A stretch of DNA of 64,000 nucleotides from a bacterium (GCA_018822665.1 JAHJJX010000031.1:31549-95548); one strand, 5' to 3'; shown: positions 33,321 through 51,761, counted from the stretch's first letter. Notes: generated by a model not told the origin, from the letters alone. Numbers and translations: made by a program.

Positions 33321-35278
33321 TGCTAAACAATCTCCAAGGCAAGGCGCTTAGAACCTTTGAAAACAACCTTGTTTATTTTGAAAAAAAACAAAAAAATGTT
33401 TATGACAAACTCGCCGCACTGAATTGGGCGCTCGAACAAAACGCGTATCAAAGCAGGTATGATTTAATTCTTGAAGAGAGTTATTTTGAGGTGATAGAAC
33501 TCTCAAGCAAAACAAAACTCTACAACTCCGACAGCTTTGCTTATGGCGATATCGTGAGAGAAAGTGTCAATTACAAAAAAAATGAAAATGTTTTTGAAAC
33601 TTTTAAAAGAGTGCATCTGAATGAAAAAAATGATGAGCACATAGACATTTATGAGATTTTAAATTATATAAATACTTATAAAGCAAAATCCGACACCTTA
33701 AATTCTCTGGATAAATTTATCTTTTTCGGAGCAGGTCTTGGGACGCACATCAGCAAGGTAAATGAAAAAATCAAAGCTTCGTCTTACCTCATTATCGAAG
33801 ATGATTTGGAACTTTTCAAACTCTCTTTGTTTGTCACTCCCTACTATGAAATAGCAAAAAACAGCAAACTTTTTTTTAGTGTTTTTGAATCGAATGATGA
33901 GTTTAAAACAGTATCCCAACAGTTTATCAACCACAGTTTTCATCTCAACCATTACATAAAATATTTCCACATGCTCAGCCACGGCGAAGAAAAAATAAAA
34001 GAGTTTCATCTGCGGGTCATCTCCCAGTCGCACAATATCTTTTTTTATAAATCTATTTTAGACCAGTATCTCAAACCTCTCGATTATATCAAAGAGGGAT
34101 ATAAGTTTTTAAATATGCTGCACTCCTATAAAGGCTCCTCTTTAGATACGAAACCGGTGCTTCTTCTAGGAGCCGGCCCCTCCTTAAAAATAAACATGGA
34201 GTGGCTCAACAAAAATCAAAACAGTTTTGTCGTCGTTGCAATTTCATCCACTCTCAATATACTCCAAGCGCACGCTATCCAACCCGACATTGTAATTCAC
34301 ATGGATGGTTTTGAATCAAGCGGGGCACATTTCACAAAGCTGGAAAACTTTGAGTTTTTAAGCAAAAGCATCTTTTTTTTCTCAGCCAGAACACCCCAAT
34401 CCATAATAAAACTTCTCAACAAAGATAAAATATTTTTTTATGAAAACGGAACAAGCTACAAAATAGGTTTGGGAAACCTCAGCGCCGCCTGCGTCGGCTC
34501 CACTTCCTACCTTTTGCTTCTTGGCGGACTCAAAGTAAGCGCGCTGTATTTGCTGGGGCTTGATTTGGCACTAGACAGCCAAAGCGGAGAAACCCATTCC
34601 AAGGGGCATGAATACGCCCAAAAACTTGATTTAAGTTCACACGAACTTCACAATGATGCGATGGAGTTTAAAAAAACCGTGTTAAAAGTTCAGGGCAATT
34701 TTGACCCCTTTGTTTATACAACCCCTGAATGGCTGCTCTCCATAGACTCCATCCATACCTCTTCAACATCTTTTAAAGAGCCTTCTCAAAACATTTACAA
34801 CCTTAGCAAAGGTGCATTTTTTAAAAATACAATCCCCACTCCTCTTGAATCGCTTCAAATGGATACCTTGATGGATAAAGACAAACTCAACGCAGAACTT
34901 TTCGATAGTTTCAATTTTGCATGCTCTCAAAATTTAGGCAAGGATGAGAAAACACTTTTGCAAAGTAAACTCAAAAAAGCGAAGAAACTTCAAAAAATAC
35001 TCTCAAACCATCAAGAACCGCGTAACAGTGATGTCTTTTTAAAAACTCTCCCTGCACTTTTCACCGAACTCTCAGGCGATACATCGCAAAGCGGATACGA
35101 TATATCGCTCATTTTGCAGGAATATTTTAAATTTATCTATACCAATATTTTTGATTTTTTCAATACTCAAGGTTTAAGCCAAAAAGATTTGCATGCAAAA
35201 GAGATAAACGCTTCGCTTGTAAAAGCACTACAAAGAATTGTGAGAGTGTATATAAAAGCCCTAGAAGCCGTACTCTAG
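33320..35278 (+). CDS. Motility accessory factor (Maf; DUF115/6-hydroxymethylpterin pyrophosphokinase-like), copy 1
   Basis: PVLLLGAGPSLKINMEWL, YLLGLDLALD, SYLIIEDDLELFKLSLF; TAATG with LmbE gene. Confidence 0.85.
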   Translation: MLNNLQGKALRTFENNLVYFEKKQKNVYDKLAALNWALEQNAYQSRYDLILEESYFEVIELSSKTKLYNSDSFAYGDIVRESVNYKKNENVFETFKRVHLNEKNDEHIDIYEILNYINTYKAKSDTLNSLDKFIFFGAGLGTHISKVNEKIKASSYLIIEDDLELFKLSLFVTPYYEIAKNSKLFFSVFESNDEFKTVSQQFINHSFHLNHYIKYFHMLSHGEEKIKEFHLRVISQSHNIFFYKSILDQYLKPLDYIKEGYKFLNMLHSYKGSSLDTKPVLLLGAGPSLKINMEWLNKNQNSFVVVAISSTLNILQAHAIQPDIVIHMDGFESSGAHFTKLENFEFLSKSIFFFSARTPQSIIKLLNKDKIFFYENGTSYKIGLGNLSAACVGSTSYLLLLGGLKVSALYLLGLDLALDSQSGETHSKGHEYAQKLDLSSHELHNDAMEFKKTVLKVQGNFDPFVYTTPEWLLSIDSIHTSSTSFKEPSQNIYNLSKGAFFKNTIPTPLESLQMDTLMDKDKLNAELFDSFNFACSQNLGKDEKTLLQSKLKKAKKLQKILSNHQEPRNSDVFLKTLPALFTELSGDTSQSGYDISLILQEYFKFIYTNIFDFFNTQGLSQKDLHAKEINASLVKALQRIVRVYIKALEAVL

Positions 35279-35959
35279 TTCCGCCTGTGCGTAACTCTCG
35301 GGCGTGCCTATGTCTCTGTGGTACACATCATTTAAAAAGGTATTTATTTTCCCCATATACGCAGGCAAAACATCCAAACTGAAATCTGCCTCTTTTTTGC
35401 CAAGGCTTTTTATAAACTCTATGACACCTCTTTCGCAGATGTAAACCGCTCCGTTTGCAAGATTGGAGGGGGGATTTTGCACTTTTTCATAAAACTTCTG
35501 TACAACACCCTCTTTGTCCGGTTCAACAATTCCACATGCCGAGGGATTATCCGTTTTGAATGTCATCATCGTTATTTCGCACCCCTTTGGACGTTTGGCA
35601 TGTGCATCCATAAAGGCTTTAAAATCGCAAAAACAAAGATTGTCCGCATGCACCAGCATAAAAGCCTCATTTTGAAAAAAAGCCTCATTTGCCAAAAGAG
35701 TTCCGCCGGTATTTAAAAGCTTCTCTTCATGCGTAAGGGTGATTGCATCTTTAAATTTGGAATGATTTACAAAGCTTTCTACCTGCTTGGCCAAATAAGA
35801 AGTATTAATTAAAAATTCGTCCACTCCCGCGCCGCTGAGATTTTCAAGCCAATAGTGCAAAAGCGGTTTGCCCTTGATGGGCACTAAACATTTTGGGGTC
35901 CTAAGGGTAAGAGGACGAAGTCTCGTTCCCTCTCCTGCGGCTAAAAGAAGTGCTCTCAT
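35261..35959 (-). CDS. Sugar nucleotidyltransferase (HddC/RmlA-like)
   Basis: MRALLLAAGEGTRLRPLTLRTPKCLVPIKGKPLLHYWLENL. Confidence 0.85.
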   Translation of the reverse strand: MRALLLAAGEGTRLRPLTLRTPKCLVPIKGKPLLHYWLENLSGAGVDEFLINTSYLAKQVESFVNHSKFKDAITLTHEEKLLNTGGTLLANEAFFQNEAFMLVHADNLCFCDFKAFMDAHAKRPKGCEITMMTFKTDNPSACGIVEPDKEGVVQKFYEKVQNPPSNLANGAVYICERGVIEFIKSLGKKEADFSLDVLPAYMGKINTFLNDVYHRDIGTPESYAQAELEYGF

Positions 35960-37387
35960 CTATTCAAACTCTTTTAAAATCTCTTCTTTTTTAATAGGAA
36001 CATTTCCCACGCGGCTTATCTGAATGGCAGAGGCCAAAGAACCCAGATAAGCGGCTTCCCAGATATTTGCCCCTACACCCAGCGCCATAGCGCTGCAGGT
36101 AAGCAGAGAATCTCCCGCACCGCTTACGTCTTTTACGATATTGCCCAGTGCGCTTATATTGTCCGTGAGCAGTTTGTCTTTTGGAGTGTTGTATATCATC
36201 ATCCCCTCCGCGCCCAAAGTGGTAAAGATATATTTTGCATTGGAGACGACGGAGAGCTTATCGGAGAGGACAACCAGCCCTGATTCAAAATCATTGAGGG
36301 AGAGTCGTATCTCCCTCTCCGTAGGTGTCACCAGAGTCATCTCTTTGAACTTGGATATATCTCCCACTTGCGAGGAGCTTTGAGAATCCGCCGCCATCAA
36401 AATAGAGTTCTCAAGACCCAGCTTTGATATGTTTTGGATAAGGGTTTTGGTTAAAACTCCGTAACTGAAATCTGAAAACAGTATCAAATCGATATCTTTT
36501 ATCTCATGTGCTAGAGCTTCCAAAACCGTATTTTCAATATCTAGGCTGATAGAGTGCTGTTTGAGATGGTTTACCCGTAAAAGCGTTTTTGAACTAGCAC
36601 GAAATCTTTGTTTGAGCGTCGTCGGACGCGTACAGTCGGAGTACAAAAAGACGTCGATGCCCAAGGCTTCAAGCCCGTTTTTAACATATTCCTTATTTTC
36701 ATCTTCCCCGACGACGGAAAAGAACTTTACCTTTGCCCCGAGGGTTGCGGCATGAGAAGCAACGATTGCGGCTCCCCCTATAAACTTGTTGCTCGCAAGC
36801 GGACTCACCACGATAGTAGGGTCTTCCTGACTCATCCCCAAAGGCTCACAGGTGATATACTCATCGACAATGGTGTCGCCGATTACTAAAACATTTAAAT
36901 TTGAAAATTTCTCAACAATATCTCTGAGGTCTTGGAGTTTAAAACTGTGACGCTCAAGGTACGAGGCGCTGTGATTCACCTTGTAATTGGAGGTGAAGAA
37001 CTCTTTTTTTAACAAGTCCATTGAGGAAAAACCAATCTCGCCTGAACTAAAAAGCAATTTCCCCCCATACCCTTTGATTATCTCTAATTCAGGATTATAC
37101 TTGCTCTCGAACTCTTTTCCCTTTACGACGATATCGGGGCGATTTTTTTGTATGTAGGCAACAGCGCTCTCTTGCAAAATAAAAGCCTCATCCACATAAC
37201 TTGTCGCCCGTATCGATTCGAGTCGTACGTCCTGATTTATCCCTTTGTTAAAAGTTACATCATCACTGTTGACACCGACAATAAGGTAGGTTCCGCTCTC
37301 TTTTGCAAACTTTAAAAGTCGGAGGTGTCCGGGGTGGAGAATATTAAAATCACCATAAACAAAAACCGCTATTTTTTTATTTTTCAT
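35960..37387 (-). CDS. Fused cytidylyltransferase-like plus PfkB-family sugar kinase (HldE-like, domain order inverted)
   Basis: N-term VYGDFNILHPGHLRLLKFAKESG (nucleotidyltransferase HxGH), C-term VLVIGDTIVDEY...GGAAIVASHAATLGAKV...VKDVSGAGDSLL (PfkB). Confidence 0.82.
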   Translation of the reverse strand: MKNKKIAVFVYGDFNILHPGHLRLLKFAKESGTYLIVGVNSDDVTFNKGINQDVRLESIRATSYVDEAFILQESAVAYIQKNRPDIVVKGKEFESKYNPELEIIKGYGGKLLFSSGEIGFSSMDLLKKEFFTSNYKVNHSASYLERHSFKLQDLRDIVEKFSNLNVLVIGDTIVDEYITCEPLGMSQEDPTIVVSPLASNKFIGGAAIVASHAATLGAKVKFFSVVGEDENKEYVKNGLEALGIDVFLYSDCTRPTTLKQRFRASSKTLLRVNHLKQHSISLDIENTVLEALAHEIKDIDLILFSDFSYGVLTKTLIQNISKLGLENSILMAADSQSSSQVGDISKFKEMTLVTPTEREIRLSLNDFESGLVVLSDKLSVVSNAKYIFTTLGAEGMMIYNTPKDKLLTDNISALGNIVKDVSGAGDSLLTCSAMALGVGANIWEAAYLGSLASAIQISRVGNVPIKKEEILKEFE

Positions 37388-38249
37388 TATGTTTCCTAAA
37401 AAGTGTGATGTACTCTTTTAAATACGTATCTATCGGTTTTGGAGCAAAAAGAGGAATCTTTTCTTGTAATGCCCTTGTATCAAAAAACAAATCACCGGCT
37501 CTGAGCTCCTGCGCTTTTTCATATCGGATATCAAAAGGAATCTCCAAAAGAGAAAAAACTTTTTTGATTAGATTCATTAAAGAGATACTTGTTCCCGTTG
37601 CCACATTCAAAACACCTTCGAGCTCATTTTTTATGGCAAAATCCAAAACTTGCACCAAGATGCCCACAGGCAAAAAATCTCTTTGCAGCGAACCGTCTCC
37701 GACAAGAGCAGCCGACTTGTTCTTATAAATATTTGTCACGATTTTAGCGATTGTACTGTTGGTATAATCGTATTTTCCGTAAACGCCGCTTGCTCTTAGG
37801 CGCGTTAGTTTGATGCCGTTTTGAGCACAAAACACCTTGAGTATATATTCACCCGCAACTTTTGAAACAGCATAATAATCCTCGGGATTCAGCGGTGTAG
37901 ATTCATCGATGGCATGTGGAAGATTTTTAACTCCGTACACATCGATACTGCTAAAAAACAGCAGGTGTTTGACTTTGCACTCTTGAAGTTTACGAAGAAG
38001 ATTTTGAATCATAAGAATATTTTTATTCATAGATTCAAGGGAATTTTCTCTGAGTCTTGTGATGGAGGAGGCGAGAAGGAGCGTGTCCTCAGGCTTGAGG
38101 ATTTCAAGCGCTCTGCCAAGTGAATCTGCGTCTAGCAAATCGCACTCTTTGGAGCCAAAGCCCACTATCTCTTCACCCCGATTTTGAAAATACTCAAAAA
38201 TATTTTTTCCGATAAAACCGCTAGAGCCAAGAAGTACAATTTTTCCCAT
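37377..38249 (-). CDS. NAD-dependent sugar epimerase/dehydratase
   Basis: Start re-placed to MGKIVLLGSSGFIGKNIFEYF; YAVSKVAGE motif. Confidence 0.82.
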   Translation of the reverse strand: MGKIVLLGSSGFIGKNIFEYFQNRGEEIVGFGSKECDLLDADSLGRALEILKPEDTLLLASSITRLRENSLESMNKNILMIQNLLRKLQECKVKHLLFFSSIDVYGVKNLPHAIDESTPLNPEDYYAVSKVAGEYILKVFCAQNGIKLTRLRASGVYGKYDYTNSTIAKIVTNIYKNKSAALVGDGSLQRDFLPVGILVQVLDFAIKNELEGVLNVATGTSISLMNLIKKVFSLLEIPFDIRYEKAQELRAGDLFFDTRALQEKIPLFAPKPIDTYLKEYITLFRKHNEK

Positions 38250-38250
38250 T

Positions 38251-39330
38251 TTAGTCCTTGACCTCATTTTTGGGCTTGAGCCAGCCGCATCGGTTACACC
38301 CCTCGACAAGCCCCTCTTTTTTGATGACAGATTTAAACGCTCCAAAGGCTTTGCCGAAAATAATCTCCTCCAAACGCATCTCTTTGACATTTCCCATAGA
38401 GATAGCCATACAGGGACAGAGATTCCCGTCATAATTGATATGCACGCTCGACCACGGAAACTTGCAAGGCTTAAAATCTTTATAGTTCATCGCCTCTTCA
38501 TTGATGCAATCCAACTGAGCAAGAGAGTCTTCTTGGATGAGTGAGCCTACTTTTGGGTGTAAAAAAGATTTTTTCTTCTTCGCTTGATTGTACTCCTGAA
38601 TCTGTTTGAGCTGTTTTTTTATCTCTGCAAACTCGCCATAGACATAGGCGTGGGATTTTTCGTACATCTTGTCTGCATCGTAAATCTTATCGGAGTGTTG
38701 CAGATAGGAACCTTTTAAAAACTGAAACCCGTGGGTGTCACAGCCCAAATCTTCAACGCAGTATCTGTATATTTCAAACAAATCTTTTGCATTCTCATCC
38801 AAAATAGTCGTTTTTATATCCAAAACGCAACTGCTTTTGAGCGCATCTCTTTTTTTCACAAAATAGCGAAGCTTCTCTTCGAGTTCGCTCCACTCTTTTG
38901 GCGAGACATCACGAATGCTGTTTGTGATATTGTCTATGGAGATGGAGAGCACTTTAAAATTATCGTATTTAAGCATCTCATCTATAAGCTCATAGCTCAA
39001 GAGCAAACCGTTGGAGATGATATTGCAGTGCGCTTTACTTGCAACAATTTTAAAAAGCTCCCTAAAATTAGGAAATATCAGCGGTTCGCCGCCTGTGAGT
39101 GTGACTCTTGCATTTTGCGGAATCTGTTCAAGAAGATTGACCCAGTCCTCAAACTTCATATTTGAGTTCATAACTTTTTTTTCCTGAAAACAAAAACTGC
39201 ATTTTAAATTGCATCTGTTAGTAAGCACAAAAACATACCTGTGGGGAAGCACGTCTTCGTGCTCATACGCATACTCCGTAAACTCCAAAAGATTATTGTG
39301 AAAATCTATATTTTTATTTGTGCCAGTCAT
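38251..39330 (-). CDS. Radical SAM protein with SPASM-like C-terminal Cys cluster
   Basis: CNLKCSFC; TGGEPLI; C-terminal C...CPC...GCNRCGW. Confidence 0.85.
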   Translation of the reverse strand: MTGTNKNIDFHNNLLEFTEYAYEHEDVLPHRYVFVLTNRCNLKCSFCFQEKKVMNSNMKFEDWVNLLEQIPQNARVTLTGGEPLIFPNFRELFKIVASKAHCNIISNGLLLSYELIDEMLKYDNFKVLSISIDNITNSIRDVSPKEWSELEEKLRYFVKKRDALKSSCVLDIKTTILDENAKDLFEIYRYCVEDLGCDTHGFQFLKGSYLQHSDKIYDADKMYEKSHAYVYGEFAEIKKQLKQIQEYNQAKKKKSFLHPKVGSLIQEDSLAQLDCINEEAMNYKDFKPCKFPWSSVHINYDGNLCPCMAISMGNVKEMRLEEIIFGKAFGAFKSVIKKEGLVEGCNRCGWLKPKNEVKD

Positions 39331-40132
39331 TGCCGTGCCTTTTTAGTTTATAGAGTCCGCCGTCGGATTTTAGTTTATCCAAAAGAAGCGCTTCGTTTCT
39401 CCACGGGTCATGCACCACCGAAAAGTTTCTTCCGCTCACCAGAGCTTTTTCCTTGGAACGAAGCCATACAAAACATTCGTATATATCCTGCATGCTTGTT
39501 CCCTCGTTGTTTTGCATAAACTCTTTGGTCTTTTGATACTTCTCATCCCCTTTGTCGGAGTTTTCCAAAATCAAATCATGCACTTTTGTTTTTACCCAGC
39601 CGGGACCTATGAGCATAAACTTCATATCCTCGTTTTCCGCATCCAGATATTCACACATTTTCAAAAGAAGAATTTTTCCCGAAGCCACGGCGGAAAACTT
39701 TACGACCTCCGAATTGATACCGGCTGTTCCGAAAAAGAAAACATCGGTGATACCCGCCGTATTTCTGTATTTATGGAGTGTATGGAGCAGTTTTAACTGA
39801 TGTATGGAGTTGATATGTACAGAATCACTCCAGGCATGGAAGTCTGCTTCAAAAAAATTCTGCATAGGCAGCGGTGTCGCCGGAGCTGAGATATAGATGT
39901 CCCAAACGATATCGAGTTTTTTAAACGCATTCTCAAATTGATGGATACTGATTTGGCTTGCGAGTTCAATGCTATAGAGTGAGATATCGTCCTCTTCTTT
40001 AAAGCAGCCCTCCACGGAGCCCGATGTTCTGTAAGTACCGACCACCTTGTATCCGTCTTTTAAATATCTGCGGGCCAGTTCCCTGCCGATATCACTCCCC
40101 ACGCCGATAATCAGCACTACCTTTTTACCCAT
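39314..40132 (-). CDS. Short-chain dehydrogenase/reductase
   Basis: VLIIGVGSDIGRELARRYLKDGYKVVGTYRTSG. Confidence 0.75.
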   Translation of the reverse strand: MGKKVVLIIGVGSDIGRELARRYLKDGYKVVGTYRTSGSVEGCFKEEDDISLYSIELASQISIHQFENAFKKLDIVWDIYISAPATPLPMQNFFEADFHAWSDSVHINSIHQLKLLHTLHKYRNTAGITDVFFFGTAGINSEVVKFSAVASGKILLLKMCEYLDAENEDMKFMLIGPGWVKTKVHDLILENSDKGDEKYQKTKEFMQNNEGTSMQDIYECFVWLRSKEKALVSGRNFSVVHDPWRNEALLLDKLKSDGGLYKLKRHGNDWHK

Positions 40133-40135
40133 AGC

Positions 40136-41911
40136 CTAGACCCTGCTTTGAGTAATCATGAGACTTTTTAACTCATCCGCATCCAAAAACGGAGCCATAT
40201 CTTCGAGTGTCGTTGAAGCCAAAGAACCGTCCTCTTGCTTTTTAAACGCCATTCGGGGGATAAGCTCCTGCTCGGGTGATGTCATTATCTCACACACATA
40301 CGGCTTGTCCGAAGCCAAGAACTCTTTTATCGAAGTGCTTATGTCGTCCTTAACTGTTATTCTCTTATACGCAATCCCGTAAGCCGGTACCACTTTTGAG
40401 TAATCAGGCATACTGATGCCCCCTTTATCGGAGGAACCAGCATATCTCTCATCCAAAAAGGCCCCTTGCGTATGTCGTATGGCAAGGTAGCCTTCATTGT
40501 TTATCAGCAAGATTTTTACGGGAAGCTGATGATGGAAGATGGTCTGGAGTTCATGAATATTAAACTGCATGCTCCCATCCCCTATGATGCACAGCACTCT
40601 CTTTTTATCATGTGCAAAGCAGGCCCCTATGGCTTCTGGAAGTCCTATCCCCATAGAACCTATCCCTGCGGAAACTATCATCCTCTGCCCCTCTTTGAGG
40701 CACATAGACTGAAACGGCATATATAAAGCCGTTCCGCCCCCGTCAACGGCGATAATATCCTCTTCACTTAGTTCATCACTCAAAAGGTCTAAATACTCGT
40801 AGGGGTCAATATAAGCGCTCTCTTGGCTTTTGCTTTTATTGTATGTTCCGTATTTTAAACAGACATCATTCCACATGCCGAAGTCTGATGCAAATTTTTT
40901 GTCTTCAAGGAAATGGATGAAAGAGTTTAAAAACTCTTTGGCATCGCAATGGATAGAAAAATCCACCCTCACCGTCTCATGCTCAATCTCCTCTTTATCA
41001 ATATCAATCATCACTATTTTTGCATCTTTTGCAAACTGCTCAAACCTTGTCCCTGTCAAAGGAATACTCAAATGGGAACCTATACTGAGAATGAGGTCGC
41101 TGTTTTGAACGGCGAGATTGGCACCTCTTTGTCCTGCAATCCCCAGTCTTCCGCAATTGAGCGGGTTCTCTGCCCCAAACATATCGCTTGAGTTCCAGGT
41201 CGTGACAAAGGGGATGTTGAGATTTTTCACTAAAGTGTTTATCTCCTCTTTGCCACCGGAGAGTCTTACTCCGTTGCCCACGACAAAAAGGGGTCTTTTT
41301 GACTGCCCTATCATCTCCAACAACTTCTCAAAACTCCCCTTTTGTATTTTTGGTCTTTCATCTTTGGCTTCAAAACTTTCAAGTTCGCTTGGAGTAATCT
41401 CGCTCCACTGAAAATCCATAGGAACATCTATCCAGACAGGCCCGGGTCTGCCGCTTTTTGCTATATGGATAGCTTTTTGCATCTCATATTTTATCTTTTG
41501 GGGGTTATCAATCATAACGGCATACTTGCTGATACTCTCTACCAGGGTGACGATATCCATCTGCTGAGAGCCTACTTGGCGCAGAGGCGATTTATGATTC
41601 GTGTGCTCAAACCTTTGTTGTCCCGATATAAAGATGCAGGGGATAGAATCAAGATACGCCGCTGCGAGACCTGTAAGGGCATTTGTGCCCCCCGGTCCGG
41701 TCGTAACGATACAGGCACCCAAACCTTTGATTCTGGCATAGGCTTCAGCCGCACATGCCGCAGCCTGCTCGTGATGGGTGTAGACGGCTTCTATCTTCCC
41801 GTTTTTATCGATGGAATCAAAAAAATGTACGGCAGCACCGCCCGTAACGCCAAAGACGGTCTTAATCCCCTCTTGTGCTAAAACTTCTACCATATAATCC
41901 GTGAGTTTCAT
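40136..41911 (-). CDS. Thiamine diphosphate-dependent enzyme (acetolactate synthase-like)
   Basis: VFGVTGGAAVHFFDSI, HHEQAAACAAEAYAR, ThDP motif GDGSMQFNIHELQTIFHHQLPVKILLINN. Confidence 0.88.
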   Translation of the reverse strand: MKLTDYMVEVLAQEGIKTVFGVTGGAAVHFFDSIDKNGKIEAVYTHHEQAAACAAEAYARIKGLGACIVTTGPGGTNALTGLAAAYLDSIPCIFISGQQRFEHTNHKSPLRQVGSQQMDIVTLVESISKYAVMIDNPQKIKYEMQKAIHIAKSGRPGPVWIDVPMDFQWSEITPSELESFEAKDERPKIQKGSFEKLLEMIGQSKRPLFVVGNGVRLSGGKEEINTLVKNLNIPFVTTWNSSDMFGAENPLNCGRLGIAGQRGANLAVQNSDLILSIGSHLSIPLTGTRFEQFAKDAKIVMIDIDKEEIEHETVRVDFSIHCDAKEFLNSFIHFLEDKKFASDFGMWNDVCLKYGTYNKSKSQESAYIDPYEYLDLLSDELSEEDIIAVDGGGTALYMPFQSMCLKEGQRMIVSAGIGSMGIGLPEAIGACFAHDKKRVLCIIGDGSMQFNIHELQTIFHHQLPVKILLINNEGYLAIRHTQGAFLDERYAGSSDKGGISMPDYSKVVPAYGIAYKRITVKDDISTSIKEFLASDKPYVCEIMTSPEQELIPRMAFKKQEDGSLASTTLEDMAPFLDADELKSLMITQSRV

Positions 41912-42912
41912 ATCTTCCCTTTTATCTGCATTGCTATTTTTAAAATCATATCCTCTTGCCCCGCGATAACCTTTTGTCTGCCCAGCTCTTGTAATATCTC
42001 GCCGACATCCAGATTATGCTCTTTTGCAATCTTTTGTACCTGGTATTTAAATCCGGAAAAGACCCCGTGCACTCCGCCTAAAATACTCGAACTGTTTGAA
42101 TAGGGAAGCTCTTTTAAGAGATGCGCATGAGCATAATCGGCTAAATCCAAAACTTTATCCACCCTCGCTTTAAAAGAATAGCCCTCTCTCTTGAGAAGCG
42201 CGGCTAAAATCTCAAGCTGGGCATTTCCCGCCCCTGCTCCAAATCCCCGTGAGCAGCCGTCTGCTATTGTCGCACCCGATTGAATGCTTGAGAGCGTATT
42301 TGCCACCGCCAGCCCTAAGTTGTTATGAGCATGAAAGGCAACAGGTTTTTCAAGATGCGCCCTGAGATACGATATCTTTTCGCTTACCGTTTGGGGAGTC
42401 ATATACCCTGCAGAATCAAACAAGAAGATGGCATCCGCCCCGTAAGAGACACCTATCTGCGCCTGTTTCAACAACTCCTCTTTGCAAACCATGTGCGACA
42501 TCATAAGCGCCAAATAAACATCCTTGCCGCTTGATTTTATAAAATCGATATAACTCACGCTCAGAGTTGCCTCACTGCAATGCACCGCCACCCTGAAGAT
42601 ATCTACCCCGATATCTACGGCATCTTTTAAATCATTTTTAATCGACACAAAACCGGGTAAAACAAGGGTGGAGAGTTTTGTTTTATCCAAGTTTGCCTTG
42701 GCGCTCTCAAACATCTCTTTGTCGCTGAGCAAAGCCATACCCACCTGAAAAGAGGAACCCGCCAGCCCGTTTCCGTGACCCACTTCGACTATATCTATGC
42801 CGCTTGATTCGGCTAATTTTGTATAGTTATGAATCTGCTCTTTTGTTATTTGATGAGAGAGGGCATGATTGCCGTCCCTTAATGTCGAGTCATAAAAAAG
42901 TAGTTCTCTCAT
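41908..42912 (-). CDS. 4-hydroxy-2-oxovalerate aldolase-like (DmpG/MhpE family)
   Basis: DSTLRDGNHALSHQITKEQI, FHAHNNLGLAVANTL, GFGAGAGNAQLEILAALL. Confidence 0.88.
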   Translation of the reverse strand: MRELLFYDSTLRDGNHALSHQITKEQIHNYTKLAESSGIDIVEVGHGNGLAGSSFQVGMALLSDKEMFESAKANLDKTKLSTLVLPGFVSIKNDLKDAVDIGVDIFRVAVHCSEATLSVSYIDFIKSSGKDVYLALMMSHMVCKEELLKQAQIGVSYGADAIFLFDSAGYMTPQTVSEKISYLRAHLEKPVAFHAHNNLGLAVANTLSSIQSGATIADGCSRGFGAGAGNAQLEILAALLKREGYSFKARVDKVLDLADYAHAHLLKELPYSNSSSILGGVHGVFSGFKYQVQKIAKEHNLDVGEILQELGRQKVIAGQEDMILKIAMQIKGKI

Positions 42913-43796
42913 TTTGTCTCTTTGTTTTGTGCTAGATTTTCTGCAACATATATTGCAGAACAGGTGATGATATCCAGGTTTCCTGCATACGCGGGCAGAT
43001 AATCTCCCGCTCCGTTCACGCTTATCATGATTGTCAAGATCCCCTCCTCATAGAGCGGTGCAATCACGATGCCGTAACCCGGAATATACTCTTGCAAGCG
43101 TCGGACAACGGCATTAAAAGCAGGTATAAACTCTCTTTGTTTATACTCCTTTACAAGTGCTTTGATACTTACCTGCATATTGATACATGGCTGTGCAGGG
43201 TTGACAATAAGTATCGTTTTGGCATTTTTTACGCCGCAAAACTCCTCTATCGCACTTTTTGTCACATCAATATACTCGCTGATATTCTCTCGTGTAGCCA
43301 TTCCCGCACTCTTGGATGAGATGGTTGAGACCACCTCCACATATTCCAAGACTCCGTGTATTTTAGAAATGGCATCTATAAGGGGGATGCAGGCCTGCCC
43401 CCCGCATGTCACCATATTTACATTTTTATACTTTTTTGCTTCATCCAGGTTTATTTCAGGAACAATGGCCTGCCCGAGTTTGGAGGGTGTCATATCTATG
43501 ACATCCATTCCAAGTTCGTCAAATCTTTGAGCATTTTTCAGATGTGATGCAGCGGAAGTTGCATCAAACACCAGGTCGATTGCATCCCTGTTTTTTATAA
43601 TGGCTTCCATGCTGTTGCTGAAGGTTTTGACTCCCAGCGAAGCGGCAAAAGCCAAACCCTCCGATTGTTCGTCCCGTCCTGAGATCAACACCACATGAAG
43701 ATAGGGTGATTTTTCTGCTTTTACCAGCAAATCCAAAGCGATATTTCCGCTTCCCAAAATAGCAATATTTATTTTTTTATTTACAGATTTTTTCAT
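42909..43796 (-). CDS. Acetaldehyde dehydrogenase (acylating)-like (DmpF/MhpF family)
   Basis: ILGSGNIALDLL, MTPSKLGQAIVPEINL, catalytic-Cys region VTCGGQACIPLI; 4-nt overlap with aldolase gene. Confidence 0.88.
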   Translation of the reverse strand: MKKSVNKKINIAILGSGNIALDLLVKAEKSPYLHVVLISGRDEQSEGLAFAASLGVKTFSNSMEAIIKNRDAIDLVFDATSAASHLKNAQRFDELGMDVIDMTPSKLGQAIVPEINLDEAKKYKNVNMVTCGGQACIPLIDAISKIHGVLEYVEVVSTISSKSAGMATRENISEYIDVTKSAIEEFCGVKNAKTILIVNPAQPCINMQVSIKALVKEYKQREFIPAFNAVVRRLQEYIPGYGIVIAPLYEEGILTIMISVNGAGDYLPAYAGNLDIITCSAIYVAENLAQNKETK

Positions 43797-43807
43797 ATAT
43801 TCTTTAC

Positions 43808-45238
43808 TTAAAAAACAAGCGTTTGTCTTGATTTTTTTCTGATTTCATTGAGTTCTTCCACACTCAAACCCCACAAAGAAGCTACTTTTTCTATTCTGTT
43901 TGGAGCAAAATTGATTCTGTCCCACTCATAAAGTCTTAATATGCTTATATCCTGTGCGCTCCATTCATCCGATTTTATCTGCGAATATCTCCAGTCTGTT
44001 TTTGGAAACTCATCGTTATGCGACAAAAACTCTCCCATAGAGGCTATGCTGTAAAGCTCGGTGCCATACAGAGGCACCGCCACAAAAAATTTCACATAAT
44101 CCGCACCGCAATGTTCGGCAAAATATATAGTTTCTCGTATCTCTTCCCAAGTCTCCCCCGGAAAACCTATGATGAAATTCGCTATACAGTGCATGCCGTA
44201 CTCTTTGACTTTGCGAATGATATTTGGGACCTCTTTTAAATCTTTTATAGGTTTTTTGACAATCTGCTTTAAGACCCTCTGCGTTCCGGATTCTATCGCC
44301 ACGTTTAAGCCGATACAGCCGGACTCTTTCATCAGTCTGAGGTGTTTATCCGTAAGTAAGAAAAGGGCAAATGCCGTTCCCACCCATCGCAGGTTTACCT
44401 CTTTGTCTATCATCTCCTGAAATAAAGAAGCGGCATATCTTCCCCCATCAGCCATAAGCATATTGTCATCGCCAAATACGATTGACTTTATACCATATCG
44501 CTCTTTTAAAAATAAAATCTCTTCCACTACATTTTTTGGGTCTTTGTATCTTACCTTTTTACCCGATATCATCTCCACCTGGCAAAATGAACAGCCAAAA
44601 GGGCATCCCCTAGTCGTATTTACGCTGTAAGAGGGATATTCAGGGGGTCGGTTTGGTCCGATTCGCTCCCCCCTTTGAAGATACTCTTCAAAATTTATAT
44701 AGGAGTAATCAGGCCAGGGAAGCGTGTTTAAATCCTCAACCCAGACTATCTCCTGAACATGGACCTGAGCGTTTGCATCTCTGTAAATAAGCCCTTTTTT
44801 GGGGAATTCTCCCTTGCCCTGCAAATAAAGGAGCAGCTCTTTTAAGACAAACTCCCCCTCTCCGTTTACGCCGTAATCCAAATCTTGGTTTCTAAAAGCA
44901 AAGGCATGTTTGGTTGTTATATGCACGCCTCCTGCGATAGTAATCATCGCGGAGTTCACCTCTTTGGCAAGCTCTATGGCTGTATCCAGAGTGTCCTGGT
45001 ATTCGGAGGAGAGTATGGAGATACCGATATAATCGGGGTTAATCTCTTTGAGCCTGTTTTTAAACTCCTCCCTGCTCATATCATAAAACTGCGCATCTAT
45101 AATGTGCACTTCTACGATATCTTTCACCATAGCGGCTAAAAGACAGAGCGTTACGGGATTTAAATCCCAGACCGTATTCATATCCTCTTTCTGCCATCTT
45201 TGGTTTGGATAGGTTAAGACTAATTTTTTCACATTCAA
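43808..45238 (-). CDS. Cobalamin-binding-domain radical SAM protein
   Basis: N-term B12-binding-like IDAQFYDMSREEFKNRLKEINPDYIGISILSSEY...GGVHIT; radical SAM CPFGCSFCQ. Confidence 0.85.
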   Translation of the reverse strand: MNVKKLVLTYPNQRWQKEDMNTVWDLNPVTLCLLAAMVKDIVEVHIIDAQFYDMSREEFKNRLKEINPDYIGISILSSEYQDTLDTAIELAKEVNSAMITIAGGVHITTKHAFAFRNQDLDYGVNGEGEFVLKELLLYLQGKGEFPKKGLIYRDANAQVHVQEIVWVEDLNTLPWPDYSYINFEEYLQRGERIGPNRPPEYPSYSVNTTRGCPFGCSFCQVEMISGKKVRYKDPKNVVEEILFLKERYGIKSIVFGDDNMLMADGGRYAASLFQEMIDKEVNLRWVGTAFALFLLTDKHLRLMKESGCIGLNVAIESGTQRVLKQIVKKPIKDLKEVPNIIRKVKEYGMHCIANFIIGFPGETWEEIRETIYFAEHCGADYVKFFVAVPLYGTELYSIASMGEFLSHNDEFPKTDWRYSQIKSDEWSAQDISILRLYEWDRINFAPNRIEKVASLWGLSVEELNEIRKKSRQTLVF

Positions 45239-45243
45239 TCCCT

Positions 45244-45903
45244 TTAGGGTATAAACCAGTAGTAGTCACCCTCGTAACCACACTCTTTAAAAAACGCTTT
45301 CCACTCTGCCGTATGCATCATTGTGAGTGCCGTAAGGTTCCAGGCTTCCATCGCTTTTTTTTCCTCATCATCTCTATAAGCATCAAGCGTAATAAAAGCA
45401 TCTTTTTTACTCACTCTCATAATTTCTTTAAGAGCTATTTTCATCTCATCTTTATCTAAATTGTGTAATGTTGTTATAGAGATAACTAAATCAAAACTGT
45501 TATCTTCAAATGGCAAACGCATCGCATTTGCCACTTGAAGATACTCTTTCACCTCCTCTTTGGCATGTGAAATTGCATATTCGGATATATCAACTCCCCT
45601 TACACCAATTTCGGGTATAAGCCTTTGAAAGTCATAAAGCATAAAACCTTTAGCACAACCGATATCCAATATTTTACTACTCTTATCAAGTTTGTAATAC
45701 TCTTTAAATGTTGGAATCACATCCTCCCAAAACTTTGGACTATAATAAAATCCGCCATACCCATGACTTCTCTCACCGTCAAAAAATTCTTTAGAAAATT
45801 GTCGCGCCAAGGCTTTATCTTGTTCTGTTTTCTCTTCTAATCTTTTACTCAAATCCCTCTTTGTTTTAGGGTAGTTTTGCATCAGATTTATCTCTTTACC
45901 CAT
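45244..45903 (-). CDS. Class I SAM-dependent methyltransferase
   Basis: SKILDIGCAKGFMLYDFQRL..GVRGVDISEYAI. Confidence 0.82.
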   Translation of the reverse strand: MGKEINLMQNYPKTKRDLSKRLEEKTEQDKALARQFSKEFFDGERSHGYGGFYYSPKFWEDVIPTFKEYYKLDKSSKILDIGCAKGFMLYDFQRLIPEIGVRGVDISEYAISHAKEEVKEYLQVANAMRLPFEDNSFDLVISITTLHNLDKDEMKIALKEIMRVSKKDAFITLDAYRDDEEKKAMEAWNLTALTMMHTAEWKAFFKECGYEGDYYWFIP

Positions 45904-46979
45904 TACACAAAGCCCATATGTTCTTTATCAACATCTAAATATTTAAATATTAGTTTATTCTTCTCATTAACAGCACAGTGATGGTTACAATCTATGGACG
46001 GATTGACATTAAAAAATTTATCTTTTTCGTTCATCCAGAGCTCTTTAAATCTTCTCTTTTTTATACTTCCCAATCCACCCGTGTCCAAATTATATGCTTT
46101 GTCATGACATGTATAAACATTCATATCAGCCCCGATTACCGGATTTATTTGCACATATGGACACCACTTATAATCTTTGTCAAATTTATAATCTAGTAGA
46201 TGATAACTATCAAACACTTCAAATGAGGCATCCTCTAATTCATCCTTAACCTGCATGGACAGATTCTTCGCTTCTTGGTAAATCGGCTCATGATATCTAT
46301 TGTTTTCTATCCCGTTGTTGCCAATAACACAAGGTGCGATTTTAATACTATCAACACCAATCTCTTTCATTAGCTTTGAAAAGTTATAAATCTCTTTATA
46401 GTTCTTGTTATCAACGATAAAGCTGATACCGAGATTACACTTTCTCTTAGGTATCTTTGCAAAGTTTTTCATGTTGTTGATAACTCTTGTGAACTCTCCG
46501 TGCTTTACATTTCTATACTTAGCATAACTCTCATCATCCCATCCATCAATGGAGACTCTTACCCAAGTTCCATATTTTGCAAATACATCGGCTATCTCAC
46601 CCTCTAATCTTGAACCGTTTGTTAAAGATGCAAATTTAATACTGCTTGTAGCCAAATTCTGTACAGTTTCTAATAGATGAGGGTAAAGAAACGGCTCACC
46701 CCCACCGCTGAAAGTTATTGATTGAACTTCCATATCAATACAGTCTTCAATGATTTCTCTCATTTTATCTTTAGGAATTGTATCTTTGATTGTCATATCT
46801 TTACCAAGCTGAATATCATCCAGACTCTGATAGGAGCAGTACCAACATGAATGATTACATACATTGGTGGGCTTGATTCTAATATGCAGCGGCGCTTTTA
46901 TCGTATCTACCTCTTTAGATAAAGAGTCAAGCTTATCTTGAAAATGAAATATTTTATACTCAGAATATTTAGTTGCCAT
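45903..46979 (-). CDS. Radical SAM protein with SPASM-like C-terminus
   Basis: CNHSCWYCS; SGGGEPFLYPHL; C-terminal Cys-containing extension. Confidence 0.85.
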   Translation of the reverse strand: MATKYSEYKIFHFQDKLDSLSKEVDTIKAPLHIRIKPTNVCNHSCWYCSYQSLDDIQLGKDMTIKDTIPKDKMREIIEDCIDMEVQSITFSGGGEPFLYPHLLETVQNLATSSIKFASLTNGSRLEGEIADVFAKYGTWVRVSIDGWDDESYAKYRNVKHGEFTRVINNMKNFAKIPKRKCNLGISFIVDNKNYKEIYNFSKLMKEIGVDSIKIAPCVIGNNGIENNRYHEPIYQEAKNLSMQVKDELEDASFEVFDSYHLLDYKFDKDYKWCPYVQINPVIGADMNVYTCHDKAYNLDTGGLGSIKKRRFKELWMNEKDKFFNVNPSIDCNHHCAVNEKNKLIFKYLDVDKEHMGFV

Positions 46980-46992
46980 ATTAACCCGCTTT

Positions 46993-47490
46993 TTATAAAC
47001 ATCTTAAATATGTCGGACCATTAGAGGCAAACATATCTTCTACATCTTGCTGTAAACTTTTTACAGTCGGTGCAAAAAGTTTAAAATTTTTAAAAATTTC
47101 CATCATCTGCACATCATCACTATCCATGCAGTGACTTCGCCCTAGCTTATCAAAGTAGTTATCGGCACCTACACCGATAAGTTTAACATTCATTTTATGC
47201 TCGTTCAAATCATAGCGTATCTGCTCATAAGCACGCATAACCAAAAACGGTACTTGAGAATATACTATCGGTTTAAGTCCTGCCAAATACATTCCTGCAC
47301 TCATGCTAATAGTAGCCTGTTCACAAATACCTACATTAAAAACTCTCTCTTTATGGTTATCAAAGTAGTTATCAAGAACAGCAAACCCCATATCTCCGAC
47401 TAAAAGAGCCATTTTTTCATCATATTTGAAGTAACTGTAGATTTCACTCATTACCTCTTTTTTTGTTACTAACCTACTCATCAGTTTCAC
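46993..47490 (-). CDS. Transketolase pyrimidine-binding (C-terminal subunit) domain, short
   Basis: FNVGICEQATISMSAGMYLAGLKPIVYSQ; only 165 aa, appears to lack the usual third domain. Confidence 0.8.
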   Translation of the reverse strand: MKLMSRLVTKKEVMSEIYSYFKYDEKMALLVGDMGFAVLDNYFDNHKERVFNVGICEQATISMSAGMYLAGLKPIVYSQVPFLVMRAYEQIRYDLNEHKMNVKLIGVGADNYFDKLGRSHCMDSDDVQMMEIFKNFKLFAPTVKSLQQDVEDMFASNGPTYLRCL

Positions 47491-48265
47491 CTAAAACGTA
47501 ACCGTCTTGAGTTGGACATCTAAAGTGATACGCTATTGAATTTTCACAAGGCTTTAGCCCTTTTCCTTTTACGGTATCACAAAACAGAATCGAAAAATTT
47601 GAGTTTTTATTTGTAAAAAACTCTCCCATCTTCTCTTTTAAGAGAGTCTCATTGTGCCCATCTATTTTTGAATAATTATCACTGTAACTACTCAAAACTT
47701 TAGCAAGTCTCTCATTATCAAGTCCAACATCTTCAACTCTATCCATTGCTTGAAGTCCGTTTGCATCCACAATTAAAAGAAGATTATCAAGCTTAAATCT
47801 ATATGCAAGTCCAAGAGCTTCAAAATTACTCCCCTCTTGCATCTCGCCATCCCCTACAATACAAACAACCTTATTACTCATATTTTGCATTTTAAACGCA
47901 TGTGCCATACCGACGGCTATGGGCAATCCGTGTCCTAACGATCCTGTTGAGGCCTCAATCATATAATCACTGTTTTTAGTTAAACACCCTTTTATAGATG
48001 CTCCGTTATAAAAACTCTCCAACTCGCTGTTTGGTAAAAATCCAAGTTCATTTAAAATAATATAATAGGCATAAGCACCGTGCCCTTTGGAAAAGAGAAC
48101 TCTGTCTCTGCTCTCATCTTTTACATTTTTTGTATTGTAAGTCAAAAAATCTCTAAATAAAACCGTGAGCATCTCCACGCACGAAAGGGAGGGAGCAAGA
48201 TGCCCCGCACCGCTTTTGCACGAGAGTTCTATCGTCTTTTTCCGTATATCCGCTGCTTCAAGCAT
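47474..48265 (-). CDS. Transketolase N-terminal (ThDP pyrophosphate-binding) subunit
   Basis: GHLAPSLSCVEMLTVLF, FSKGHGAYAYYIIL, VGDGEMQEGSNFEALGLAYRFKLDNLLLIVDANGLQ. Confidence 0.88.
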   Translation of the reverse strand: MLEAADIRKKTIELSCKSGAGHLAPSLSCVEMLTVLFRDFLTYNTKNVKDESRDRVLFSKGHGAYAYYIILNELGFLPNSELESFYNGASIKGCLTKNSDYMIEASTGSLGHGLPIAVGMAHAFKMQNMSNKVVCIVGDGEMQEGSNFEALGLAYRFKLDNLLLIVDANGLQAMDRVEDVGLDNERLAKVLSSYSDNYSKIDGHNETLLKEKMGEFFTNKNSNFSILFCDTVKGKGLKPCENSIAYHFRCPTQDGYVLGETDE

Positions 48266-49259
48266 CCTTGTCTCCAAGACACTCAAACCACTCTTTTGTC
48301 GCTTCTTGGATACTGTCCTCATCCCATACGGGAGCTTCTCTCCACTGCTCTATATTCTCAAGCATCGTCTTCACACCCTCTTCAAAACTCACTTTTGGAG
48401 TCCAGCCGAGCATGGTTTTTATCTTTGTTATATCGGCATAGGTGCATTCCGGCTCTCCGGGTCTTTTTGAGATATGCACCTTCTCCCCTCCCAAAAGTTC
48501 GACCAGATAGTTTATACTGTAGGTGTTATCGCTTCCCACATTAAATATCTCTTGGACGTAGGAGCTTTGGCAGGCGGTGTAACATGCATCTACGATATCC
48601 GTTACATAGGTAAAATCCCGTGTTTGTTCTCCGTCGCCGACTATCGTCAGAGGCTTTTTGTTTAAAAGCTGTGCCAAAAACACCCCAAAAACAGCTCCGT
48701 ATGTTCCGCCGGTTCTGTGCCTTATCCCGTAGACATTAAAAAATCGCATGCTCACAACCGGCATCTTGTACACCTGACCCCAGTGCATCACATACTGCTC
48801 CCCTACCGTTTTGGTGTGGGCATAGGGGTATTCCGGTCGTATGGCACTGCTCTCGGGTGTCGGATACACATCGGGTATCCCATAGCATGAGCTTGAGGCG
48901 GCATACACGAACTTTTTAAGGTTTTTCGATTTTCTGCTCGCTTGCAAAACCCGCATCGTACCGTCAACATTTGCCTGATGGTATTTTAGCGGTTCATTTA
49001 TAGAGGGCACGATATCCGCCAAAGCGGCATAATGAAACACATAATCCACATCAGCAAAGACCTCGTCCAAAGAGAGCTTATAGTCACCGATATCGGCTTG
49101 AATAAATCGGACTTTACCCTTATGATGCTCTATATTTTCCAATCTTCCGTTTGCAAGATTATCGATAACCGTCACTTCATAATTTTTAGAGACCAATAAA
49201 TCTACCATGTGCGAGCCTATAAATCCTGCTCCTCCGGTTACAATTGCTTTCATTATCAA
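48258..49259 (-). CDS. NAD-dependent sugar epimerase (UDP-glucose/GlcNAc 4-epimerase-like)
   Basis: AIVTGGAGFIGSHMVDLL, YAASSSCYG, YPYAHTKTVGEQ. Confidence 0.87.
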   Translation of the reverse strand: MIMKAIVTGGAGFIGSHMVDLLVSKNYEVTVIDNLANGRLENIEHHKGKVRFIQADIGDYKLSLDEVFADVDYVFHYAALADIVPSINEPLKYHQANVDGTMRVLQASRKSKNLKKFVYAASSSCYGIPDVYPTPESSAIRPEYPYAHTKTVGEQYVMHWGQVYKMPVVSMRFFNVYGIRHRTGGTYGAVFGVFLAQLLNKKPLTIVGDGEQTRDFTYVTDIVDACYTACQSSYVQEIFNVGSDNTYSINYLVELLGGEKVHISKRPGEPECTYADITKIKTMLGWTPKVSFEEGVKTMLENIEQWREAPVWDEDSIQEATKEWFECLGDKDA

Positions 49260-49262
49260 TCC

Positions 49263-50357
49263 TTAAATAAAATTATCATGGGCATGTGGATTCTTCAGTC
49301 TGAAAAGGTAACGGTTTACCTCATCCATTCTGCAATTTACCCTGCAATTCTTTATATCCAACTCATTTTTTACATATTCGTAGGATTTTTTTCTTTTGTC
49401 GCTTTCCCATATCTGGCTGAAACTGTTCTCATATATATTTCCATAGCAAAACTTATCATCGCCCAGATACGCACTGCACCCGAAAACTTTTCCGTCTGCC
49501 GCGATATATCCCCAAAAGAAGGGTGTAGAATGGCATGTGGAATAGGAATGCGTTTTTTGCACATGCTTTTTCATCGTATTTGCACGAAAGACCACGCTGA
49601 AATTTTCATCATTCAAACACTCCAACTCTTTTTCCAAATCCTGTGTATCGGAATAATCGATATCTGCATATTTTGTGGTTTGGCTAAAGTTGTGCTGCGA
49701 ATAAGGCTTGATAACCAGATAGTCTACTCCCGTCTCTTTACACTTTTGCGCCAAAATAACGGCCTCATCCTTGTTTTCGGGCAAAAGCAGCATCTGTACG
49801 CCGAGCGTGCATTTTAAATTGTTTTGTTTTCTATACTCCAGGGCATATTCAAGATTATGCATAACCCTCTCAAAATCAAGCTCTTTTGTTTGATGTATCT
49901 GCGCATAACTCTTCGCTGTTCCCCCGTTGAGGCTCACCTTTATCCAAGAGCAGCTCTCTATACATCTTTCAATGTTTTTTTTATTCAGCGGTACGAAATT
50001 TGTCGTGAGTGAAGTATCTATTCCCACACGTGAGCAATGTTCCACGATAAGGTCCAAGTCTTTAAAAAGAAGAGGTTCCCCCTCCCCCGCAAACATCACG
50101 CTTTTTACACCTTTTTGAGCCATGTCGCTCAGGGTGTTTTTTAAAACATCAAACTCCAAACCTATGTTTTCATACCCCATATAATCAAGTGCACAAAAGG
50201 TGCAGCGGTGGTTGCACCCGCCATAAGGTGAAATCTCTACATACACGGGATATATCTTTTTTAACTTTTGCCAATCCTCTTTTGCTTCAAGCCACTTAGC
50301 AACCCGAAGAGGATGCAGACCCATCTTATGAGAGTCTATTGAAAATTTATCGCTCAT
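49263..50357 (-). CDS. Radical SAM protein with SPASM-like C-terminus
   Basis: CNHRCTFCALDY; MFAGEGEPLLFKDL; C-terminal C..., GCSAYLGD, CRVNC. Confidence 0.85.
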   Translation of the reverse strand: MSDKFSIDSHKMGLHPLRVAKWLEAKEDWQKLKKIYPVYVEISPYGGCNHRCTFCALDYMGYENIGLEFDVLKNTLSDMAQKGVKSVMFAGEGEPLLFKDLDLIVEHCSRVGIDTSLTTNFVPLNKKNIERCIESCSWIKVSLNGGTAKSYAQIHQTKELDFERVMHNLEYALEYRKQNNLKCTLGVQMLLLPENKDEAVILAQKCKETGVDYLVIKPYSQHNFSQTTKYADIDYSDTQDLEKELECLNDENFSVVFRANTMKKHVQKTHSYSTCHSTPFFWGYIAADGKVFGCSAYLGDDKFCYGNIYENSFSQIWESDKRKKSYEYVKNELDIKNCRVNCRMDEVNRYLFRLKNPHAHDNFI

Positions 50358-51761
50358 CTAACCCACTTCTTGTTCGATTTTTTTCACCATTCTTGTAACA
50401 AAAGCGTTAAAGGACATCTCCTCAGCTATTCCATACACATTTTTTTTCGGCTCTTCGCCTAATATATCGACAAGCTCCTCATAATTTGAAAACAAAAGCG
50501 TATTTTCTTCATAATCATACTTCTCTTCGCTCATCGCTCTGCAATCATAAGACACCGGAATAGTTCCACATGCCGCCATCTCCGGCAATCTTTGCTGATA
50601 CATATCAAAAGAATGGGCATAAACCGAGTAGCGGGCGCTGTTGTAAACCTTCGAGAGTTCTTTGCCGTGGGGAAGTTCTCCTTTAAAATACGGAGCGACA
50701 AGGGGATTATTTTCCCAATGCCTGCCATACACTTCGACAGCTATGTTCTTTTGTTTGCATATCCACTCCACGCTGCATTCGCGTACGGCCATTGCAAGAG
50801 GGCTCAACAAGATTAAATTATAGTCTATCTCATATTTTCGTGAGAGTTCCCCAACATACTCCGGCGTTATTTTCATCCCCGTGTTCAGGTTTTCTCTAAA
50901 AATATTATAAAGTTCTCTGAATCTCTTATCGCTTATCTCTTTATTTAAAACAGCGGCATAAGAGGAACCTATAAAAATGATTTTATTCTCTTTTTGAATT
51001 GTTTCATCCCTGTAAAAATCACTCTTACTGACACAAAACCTCTGAATCTCATAGCTCTCTTTGATAAATTTTTTCTTCATTATCATATCCGAGAGCGCAT
51101 AAATAATGTCTCTTTGTCTTAAATGGATTTTGCTCTCATCATATAAAATCGGCATCGGGTCTTGAAACCAGACAAAATTAAAAATAGAATCGCTTAAAAA
51201 AGTATTGTTGAGATTATTGATATTGATTGTGGCATGGGGCTGAAACTCTGACATAATTTTAAAAGAACTTAAATCTTCTATCCCCTCATACAATTCAAAA
51301 CAAACTTCATAACCCATATCTCTTAAAGTATTGGCGATATTTTTAGATACGTACTGCATCACTTGGGTTGAAACATTGGCGCAGAGGTGAAATCTTAAAC
51401 GCTCGCTAAAATCCGGCGAAGAGTTTTTCATTTTTTGCAAATAATGTGTATTAAGCTGTGTTCTATACATTTTTGCCTGTTCAATGGATAAATTAAAGTT
51501 CATTAACACCTCTAATTTAATATCACTCGATATTTCCAATCCCGTAAAATCTATTTTTGAGGGTATTCTGTATGTGCCGTAAGCCAATGTTTCGAGCAGA
51601 TTTTCTATTGGAAGATGTACAAGATTTGCCAAATCGCTCTCTATCTTTTCACCTTCATAGTAACATAACTGTAAATAATAATTGTTTTCGCCCCATCTGT
51701 TTTGTTGTGAGGCAACCCGCAGAGCTTCCTTTGGGCTAAGGAAGTAAATATCTTCATGCAT
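50358..51761 (-). CDS. Glycosyltransferase-like protein (CgeB-like)
   Basis: YGRHWENNPLVAPYFKGELPHGKELSKVYNSARYSVYAHSFDMYQQRLPEMAACGTIPVSYD. Confidence 0.7.
   Translation of the reverse strand: MHEDIYFLSPKEALRVASQQNRWGENNYYLQLCYYEGEKIESDLANLVHLPIENLLETLAYGTYRIPSKIDFTGLEISSDIKLEVLMNFNLSIEQAKMYRTQLNTHYLQKMKNSSPDFSERLRFHLCANVSTQVMQYVSKNIANTLRDMGYEVCFELYEGIEDLSSFKIMSEFQPHATININNLNNTFLSDSIFNFVWFQDPMPILYDESKIHLRQRDIIYALSDMIMKKKFIKESYEIQRFCVSKSDFYRDETIQKENKIIFIGSSYAAVLNKEISDKRFRELYNIFRENLNTGMKITPEYVGELSRKYEIDYNLILLSPLAMAVRECSVEWICKQKNIAVEVYGRHWENNPLVAPYFKGELPHGKELSKVYNSARYSVYAHSFDMYQQRLPEMAACGTIPVSYDCRAMSEEKYDYEENTLLFSNYEELVDILGEEPKKNVYGIAEEMSFNAFVTRMVKKIEQEVG

Follow-up and report, generated by a model that had tools for sequence, protein, structure and literature searches.

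A candidate biosynthetic cassette of acetaldehyde dehydrogenase, pyruvate aldolase and ThDP enzyme in a bacterial surface-glycan island

Gene content of the operon

The window, by which we mean the whole 64,000-nucleotide stretch analysed (GCA_018822665.1 JAHJJX010000031.1:31549-95548), contains four minus-strand ORFs at 39314-43796 that encode an acylating acetaldehyde dehydrogenase (AcDH), an aldolase, a ThDP enzyme and an SDR. As a preliminary description of the window had reported, they are consecutive and mostly overlapping: the gaps are -4 nt (AcDH/aldolase), -4 nt (aldolase/ThDP enzyme) and +3 nt (ThDP enzyme/SDR), and there is a 17 nt overlap between the SDR gene and the gene after it. 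The four belong to a minus-strand operon of 16 genes (35261-51761), composed as follows.

50358..51761, minus: glycosyltransferase-like protein (PF13524)
49263..50357, minus: radical SAM/SPASM protein (rSAM3), belonging to a frame that several Campylobacterota genomes share
48258..49259, minus: extended SDR, epimerase/dehydratase-like, a possible ketosugar source (PF16363/PF01370)
47474..48322, minus: split transketolase, ThDP-binding N subunit (PF00456)
46993..47490, minus: split transketolase, 165-aa subunit with the pyrimidine-binding part only (PF02779)
45903..46979, minus: radical SAM protein (rSAM2; PF04055)
45244..45903, minus: SAM methyltransferase, homologous to a domain fused to the ThDP enzyme of loci L043 and L062 (Pfam, blastp)
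43808..45238, minus: B12-binding radical SAM protein (PF02310 and PF04055)
42909..43796, minus: AcDH of the DmpF/MhpF family, 295 aa (TIGR03215, over cut-off)
41908..42912, minus: DmpG/MhpE-type class II pyruvate aldolase, 334 aa (TIGR03217, over cut-off; DmpG_comm domain)
40136..41911, minus: putative ThDP carboligase, YerE/ErwE/JanthE-like, 591 aa (8rph match, tree)
39314..40132, minus: divergent SDR, 272 aa, catalytic Tyr replaced by Val149 (weak adh_short match)
38251..39330, minus: radical SAM/SPASM protein (rSAM1), recurring with some clade C trios (Pfam)
37377..38432, minus: NAD-dependent epimerase/dehydratase-like protein (Pfam; 43% identity in L038)
35960..37387, minus: HldE-like fusion, a cytidylyltransferase-like domain followed by a PfkB kinase (Pfam, NCBIfam)
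35261..35959, minus: sugar-1-phosphate nucleotidyltransferase (PF00483)

The sugar-nucleotide genes first described as both neighbours of the four are not there; the adjoining genes encode radical-SAM proteins, of the SPASM type at 38251-39330 and B12-binding at 43808-45238. For the extended SDR at 48258-49259 the nearest solved structures are mostly epimerases, so that its likeness to an epimerase is as strong as to a dehydratase. The 165-aa subunit at 46993-47490 matches the pyrimidine-binding domain only and showed no C-terminal domain of transketolase. The surrounding island also contains FliD, NeuB-family, LegC-type and MptE/Maf-type genes, with a GNAT-type acetyltransferase at 31475-31951; read from its genes, the island makes nonulosonic acids, and a flagellar glycan role for the operon is plausible from this company.

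The AcDH/aldolase pair

Both proteins exceed the cut-offs of NCBIfam equivalogs, AcDH with 336 bits against TIGR03215 (cut-off 282) and the aldolase with 324 bits against TIGR03217 (cut-off 286). AcDH has a Cys within a TCGGQA motif common to MhpF, and is 46-49% identical to homologues from Rfb loci and 42-44% to catabolic homologues. In the aldolase, Arg12, Asp13, His16, His194 and His196 are conserved and align with the catalytic Arg, the metal-binding Asp and His, and the catalytic His. In 74 AcDH/aldolase pairs AcDH lies directly 5′ of the aldolase, the genes overlapping or standing within 20 nt of each other in 64 of the 74, an order and closeness as in aldolase-dehydrogenase complexes. 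The window pair shares both proteins, the catalytic residues and the overlap of the genes with DmpFG, MhpEF and BphIJ; it differs from them in that its aldolase has Phe at BphI Tyr290, and in that its setting is biosynthetic whereas theirs are catabolic.

The residue in question is Phe285 of the window aldolase, and Leu83 falls at BphI Leu87 (BphI numbering is that of MhpE plus 2, which is backed by an equal 203-residue spacing). At positions 87 and 290, four catabolic aldolases have Leu/Tyr and 68 of 75 glycan-locus aldolases outside clade C (defined below) have His/Phe; the window aldolase and that of L038, a second Campylobacterota locus, are Leu/Phe, keeping the Leu87 that most glycan-locus members lack. 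Stereocontrol is lost in the BphI variant Y290F and inverted in L87N/Y290F and L87W/Y290F (PMC3962088). Because Phe290 and His87 occupy these stereochemistry positions, aldolases from glycan loci could by nature be of a (4R) type or relaxed in their stereochemistry.

A quick tree separates the four catabolic aldolases from the rest with a support of 100 and puts the window aldolase with the glycan-locus group. PF00903 (extradiol dioxygenase) and PF01557 (dienoate hydratase), the two families searched for, had no match in the genome, while positive controls matched; the pair is therefore probably not catabolic, which bears out the non-catabolic use supposed at first. Meta-cleavage catabolism was rejected on this ground. 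AcDH and the aldolase do pass the cut-offs of two families known chiefly as catabolic, but with neither Pfam family matched and the aldolase outside the catabolic clade, it is scarcely credible that they are a displaced fragment of a meta-cleavage pathway.

The ThDP enzyme and the SDR

The ThDP enzyme lies under every acetolactate-synthase NCBIfam cut-off shown (390 bits at best, versus 538). It scores 440 bits to the structure 8rph, versus 307 to acetolactate synthase, and is 31% identical to the IlvB-like protein of the same genome. We identified 8rph as JanthE by its CDG motif; it is the best solved-structure match and covers nearly the whole enzyme, although JanthE belongs to another clade and the window enzyme keeps GDG. 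JanthE accepts pyruvate (PMC12247030).

In a tree made by a quick method, with long outgroup branches, the glycan-locus ThDP enzymes stand apart from IlvI, Gcl and PoxB (SH-aLRT 99). The window enzyme groups with those of five other loci (L038, L043, L062, L073 and L097) in what we call clade C (support 99), and no RfbF, RfbG or RfbH was found near these five, each of which has an incomplete flank on one side or both. Two of them encode a ThDP enzyme with a C-terminal methyltransferase domain (L043 3827-6418, by blastp; L062 7265-9835, by Pfam).

The SDR matches adh_short of Pfam weakly, and its predicted structure has a pLDDT of 43.7 from a shallow alignment. When it is aligned to 3kzv, Val149 takes the place of the catalytic Tyr of YxxxK and Lys153 is kept; V149 is also found in the L038 SDR. 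The SDR proposed as a reductase in the preliminary description is thus present, but its function as a ketoreductase is doubtful because the catalytic Tyr is missing.

Relatives in other genomes

In a first set of 60 relatives, AcDH was matched in the window's genome only. TIGR03215 exceeded its cut-off in 10 of 397 genomes of the phylum, and six neighbourhoods among the other nine genomes were read (L032-L037): in three (L033-L035) the AcDH/aldolase/ThDP trio is beside homologues of RfbF, RfbG and RfbH, and the other three look catabolic, as judged by reading the sequences. A scan of 85,462 genomes with four glycan-type aldolases gave 336 relatives, the best 80 loci of which were examined. Among these best 80 of 336, a sample picked by aldolase similarity, 45 had full flanks (7 kb or more to either side); AcDH was within 2 kb in 43 of the 45, a ThDP enzyme within 8 kb in 43, and in 39 the same 8 kb held RfbF or RfbH with an identity of at least 40%. 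A search of other glycan loci for the four-gene set had been proposed; what recurs in them is the trio, with RfbF/RfbH genes. Trio relatives span bacteria and archaea and are in many surface-polysaccharide loci. The literature searched had no relevant account of this gene set in O-antigen loci, a scan of viral contigs with AcDH yielded no relative, and a phage collection gave one distant match.

HH..MGEGG, a mark of the deoxygenating dehydrase rather than of an aminotransferase, is present in 44 of 47 RfbH homologues. This bears on the first of two hypotheses in the preliminary description, an aldol reaction leading to a 3-hydroxyacyl-CoA donor for N-acylation. The ThDP enzyme would free 3-hydroxybutanal, and its oxidation by AcDH would give 3-hydroxybutyryl-CoA, the donor for N-acylation of an amino sugar. 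The chemistry is possible, and the island has its GNAT-type acetyltransferase and makes nonulosonic acids. Nevertheless, the trio recurs with RfbF/G/H, makers of non-amino 3,6-dideoxyhexoses, the closest characterised enzymes are carboligases, and AcDH directly precedes the aldolase in the 74 pairs as in aldolase-dehydrogenase complexes. We retain the aldol step and consider the N-acylation improbable, since the relatives' RfbH leaves no amino group.

The second hypothesis was a two-carbon branch made from pyruvate, as in yersiniose. YerE-type sugar branching is favoured by JanthE as the closest structure, by the placement of the window enzyme in the YerE-type family and by relatives in CDP-3,6-dideoxyhexose loci. 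The length of the branch is another matter: a C2 branch leaves AcDH and the aldolase without a role. Moreover, in a second tree with added family members, the ThDP enzymes of three Rfb loci that have a ThDP enzyme and lack AcDH and aldolase (L183-L185) form a separate clade, the absence being weak for L183 and L185, on contigs of 6559 and 5806 bases. A C2 branch is accordingly quite unlikely, and a C4 branch is preferred. The ThDP enzyme of L181, however, falls inside the trio clade with AcDH and aldolase absent nearby, which counts against the C4 branch.

Several other arrangements were seen. In L176-L179, which are Rfb loci with a ThDP enzyme, a 361-aa protein and one of about 261 aa replace AcDH and aldolase, and perhaps represent a third donor supply. 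L118 and L119 8995-12260, on Leisingera and Phaeobacter plasmids, have an aldolase and AcDH with aminotransferase and ATP-grasp genes and no ThDP gene annotated nearby. On the symbiotic plasmid of Paraburkholderia phenoliruptrix (L120 8096-13309), AcDH, aldolase, SDR, carboxymuconolactone decarboxylase and ThDP enzyme occur together; no glycan genes are annotated nearby, and the ThDP enzyme is outside the clade. An ORF with a GTW motif is near the aldolase in L039, L043, L062, L073, L114 and L116, that of L062 being an HpcH/HpaI aldolase match in Pfam and the other five recognised by pattern alone.

Some of these features would suit a different role, in which the ThDP enzyme takes 4-hydroxy-2-oxopentanoate as its acceptor, or makes a free small molecule for tailoring by the methyltransferase and radical-SAM enzymes, and no branched sugar is made. 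The clade C loci found without RfbF/G/H, the methyltransferases that lie close to the ThDP enzyme or are fused with it, and the aldolase/AcDH pairs accompanied by aminotransferase and ATP-grasp genes all point this way. Nucleotidyltransferase, HldE-like and epimerase-like genes in the window and L038 operons and in Methylophilaceae loci argue against it, and we regard it as unlikely.

A variable frame in Campylobacterota

The whole operon is syntenic in one second Campylobacterota genome (L038) at 43-83% protein identity, and is therefore not a chance assembly. L175 was kept out as independent evidence, because it has the same genes with near-identical percentages, on a contig as long as that of L038 (26175), and is probably the L038 record reversed. 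rSAM1 is 71% identical in L038 and 51-54% in L043 and L062.

The rSAM3 gene is present in 28 of 397 Campylobacterota genomes. In eight rSAM3 neighbourhoods (L160-L167), the transketolase N subunit is found in all eight, the pyrimidine-binding subunit in seven, and, over the 20 kb examined, the HldE-like gene in six, with varying genes between. The HldE-like gene was not seen in L161, where the stretch stops shortly past the transketolase genes, or in L167. A ninth locus, in genome G180, has the frame without the AcDH/aldolase/ThDP trio. The frame, which consists of rSAM3 and the split transketolase, often with glycosyltransferase, dehydratase, HldE-like and nucleotidyltransferase genes, was seen with different inserts in the window, L160-L167, L123 and L140. 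The window trio looks like one variable insert in it. A literature search on transketolase and radical SAM in flagellin glycosylation found none.

Discussion

Gene content, family membership, clade placement and conserved neighbourhoods are what we observe at this locus, and from these we infer which reactions occur, which way AcDH runs, what the acceptor is and where the sugar ends up. The trio is likely to be a biosynthetic cassette in which AcDH and the aldolase build a C4 unit and the ThDP enzyme attaches it to a sugar. AcDH is best understood as a predicted reductase of acetyl-CoA to acetaldehyde, which would be handed to the bound aldolase; the aldolase is predicted to make 4-hydroxy-2-oxopentanoate from acetaldehyde and pyruvate. 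The ThDP enzyme would decarboxylate this oxoacid and transfer what is left, the 3-hydroxybutanoyl C4 unit, to the ketone of an activated sugar. This would yield a higher-carbon sugar with a C-branch, destined for a glycan of the cell surface, probably that of the flagellum. The scheme would combine the aldol step of the first hypothesis with the sugar branching of the second, with a C4 branch and no acyl-CoA.

The closest parallel is erwiniose of Pectobacterium atrosepticum. ErwE joins 4-hydroxy-2-oxoacids, not pyruvate, to CDP-4-keto-3,6-dideoxyglucose to give erwiniose (PMC12247030), which is a 10-carbon sugar (PMC8657720). A C5 oxoacid from AcDH and aldolase would, when decarboxylated, leave a C4 branch, and this fits a 10-carbon product. 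As described, ErwE is a YerE-like ThDP enzyme like that of the window; the donor supply that its chemistry would call for is present, in that AcDH and a DmpG-type aldolase adjoin the ThDP enzyme, and trio relatives adjoin genes (RfbF/RfbH) for CDP-4-keto-3,6-dideoxyglucose, the substrate of ErwE. The window differs in that neither RfbH nor CDP-glucose dehydratase was found in its genome, and in that its ThDP enzyme is in a separate clade. Caryophyllose, a 4-C-(1,3,4,5-tetrahydroxyhexyl)-3,6-dideoxyhexose (PMC5706390), has the pattern expected from a pyruvate-aldol donor, and MMAR_2332, of caryophyllose in Mycobacterium marinum, is described as having an ErwE-like donor preference (PMC12247030).

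The C4 branch is thus favoured because, of the 45 full-flank loci of aldolase relatives, 43 have a ThDP enzyme and 39 RfbF or RfbH, and ErwE takes 4-hydroxy-2-oxoacids, because the ThDP enzyme groups with glycan-locus enzymes and not with IlvI, Gcl or PoxB, and because the Rfb loci without AcDH and aldolase hold a separate ThDP clade. Counting against it, in addition to L181, are the Leu87 kept by the window and L038 aldolases, the SDR without its catalytic Tyr, and the failure to find RfbH or CDP-glucose dehydratase.

The last point concerns the acceptor. In a search of the window genome for RfbH and RfbG, the RfbH-like hits were 32-35% identical, and no CDP-glucose dehydratase (RfbG) exceeded the cut-off; RfbH hits in the L038 genome were at most 37% identical. 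The acceptor therefore probably differs from the CDP-3,6-dideoxyhexose of most relatives, and may be some oxidised intermediate that the transketolase/HldE-like/epimerase frame of the operon produces. We suggest, tentatively and at somewhat less than even confidence, that the acceptor to which clade C adds the C4 unit is not CDP-4-keto-3,6-dideoxyglucose, and that in the window, with the split transketolase and several radical-SAM enzymes, this gives flagellin or LPS a higher-carbon sugar that is as yet undescribed.

Finally, the C4-branch reading would mean that genes with aromatic-degradation annotations serve in many phyla to build surface glycans, and could make it testable from sequence which YerE-like enzymes take a C4 donor.
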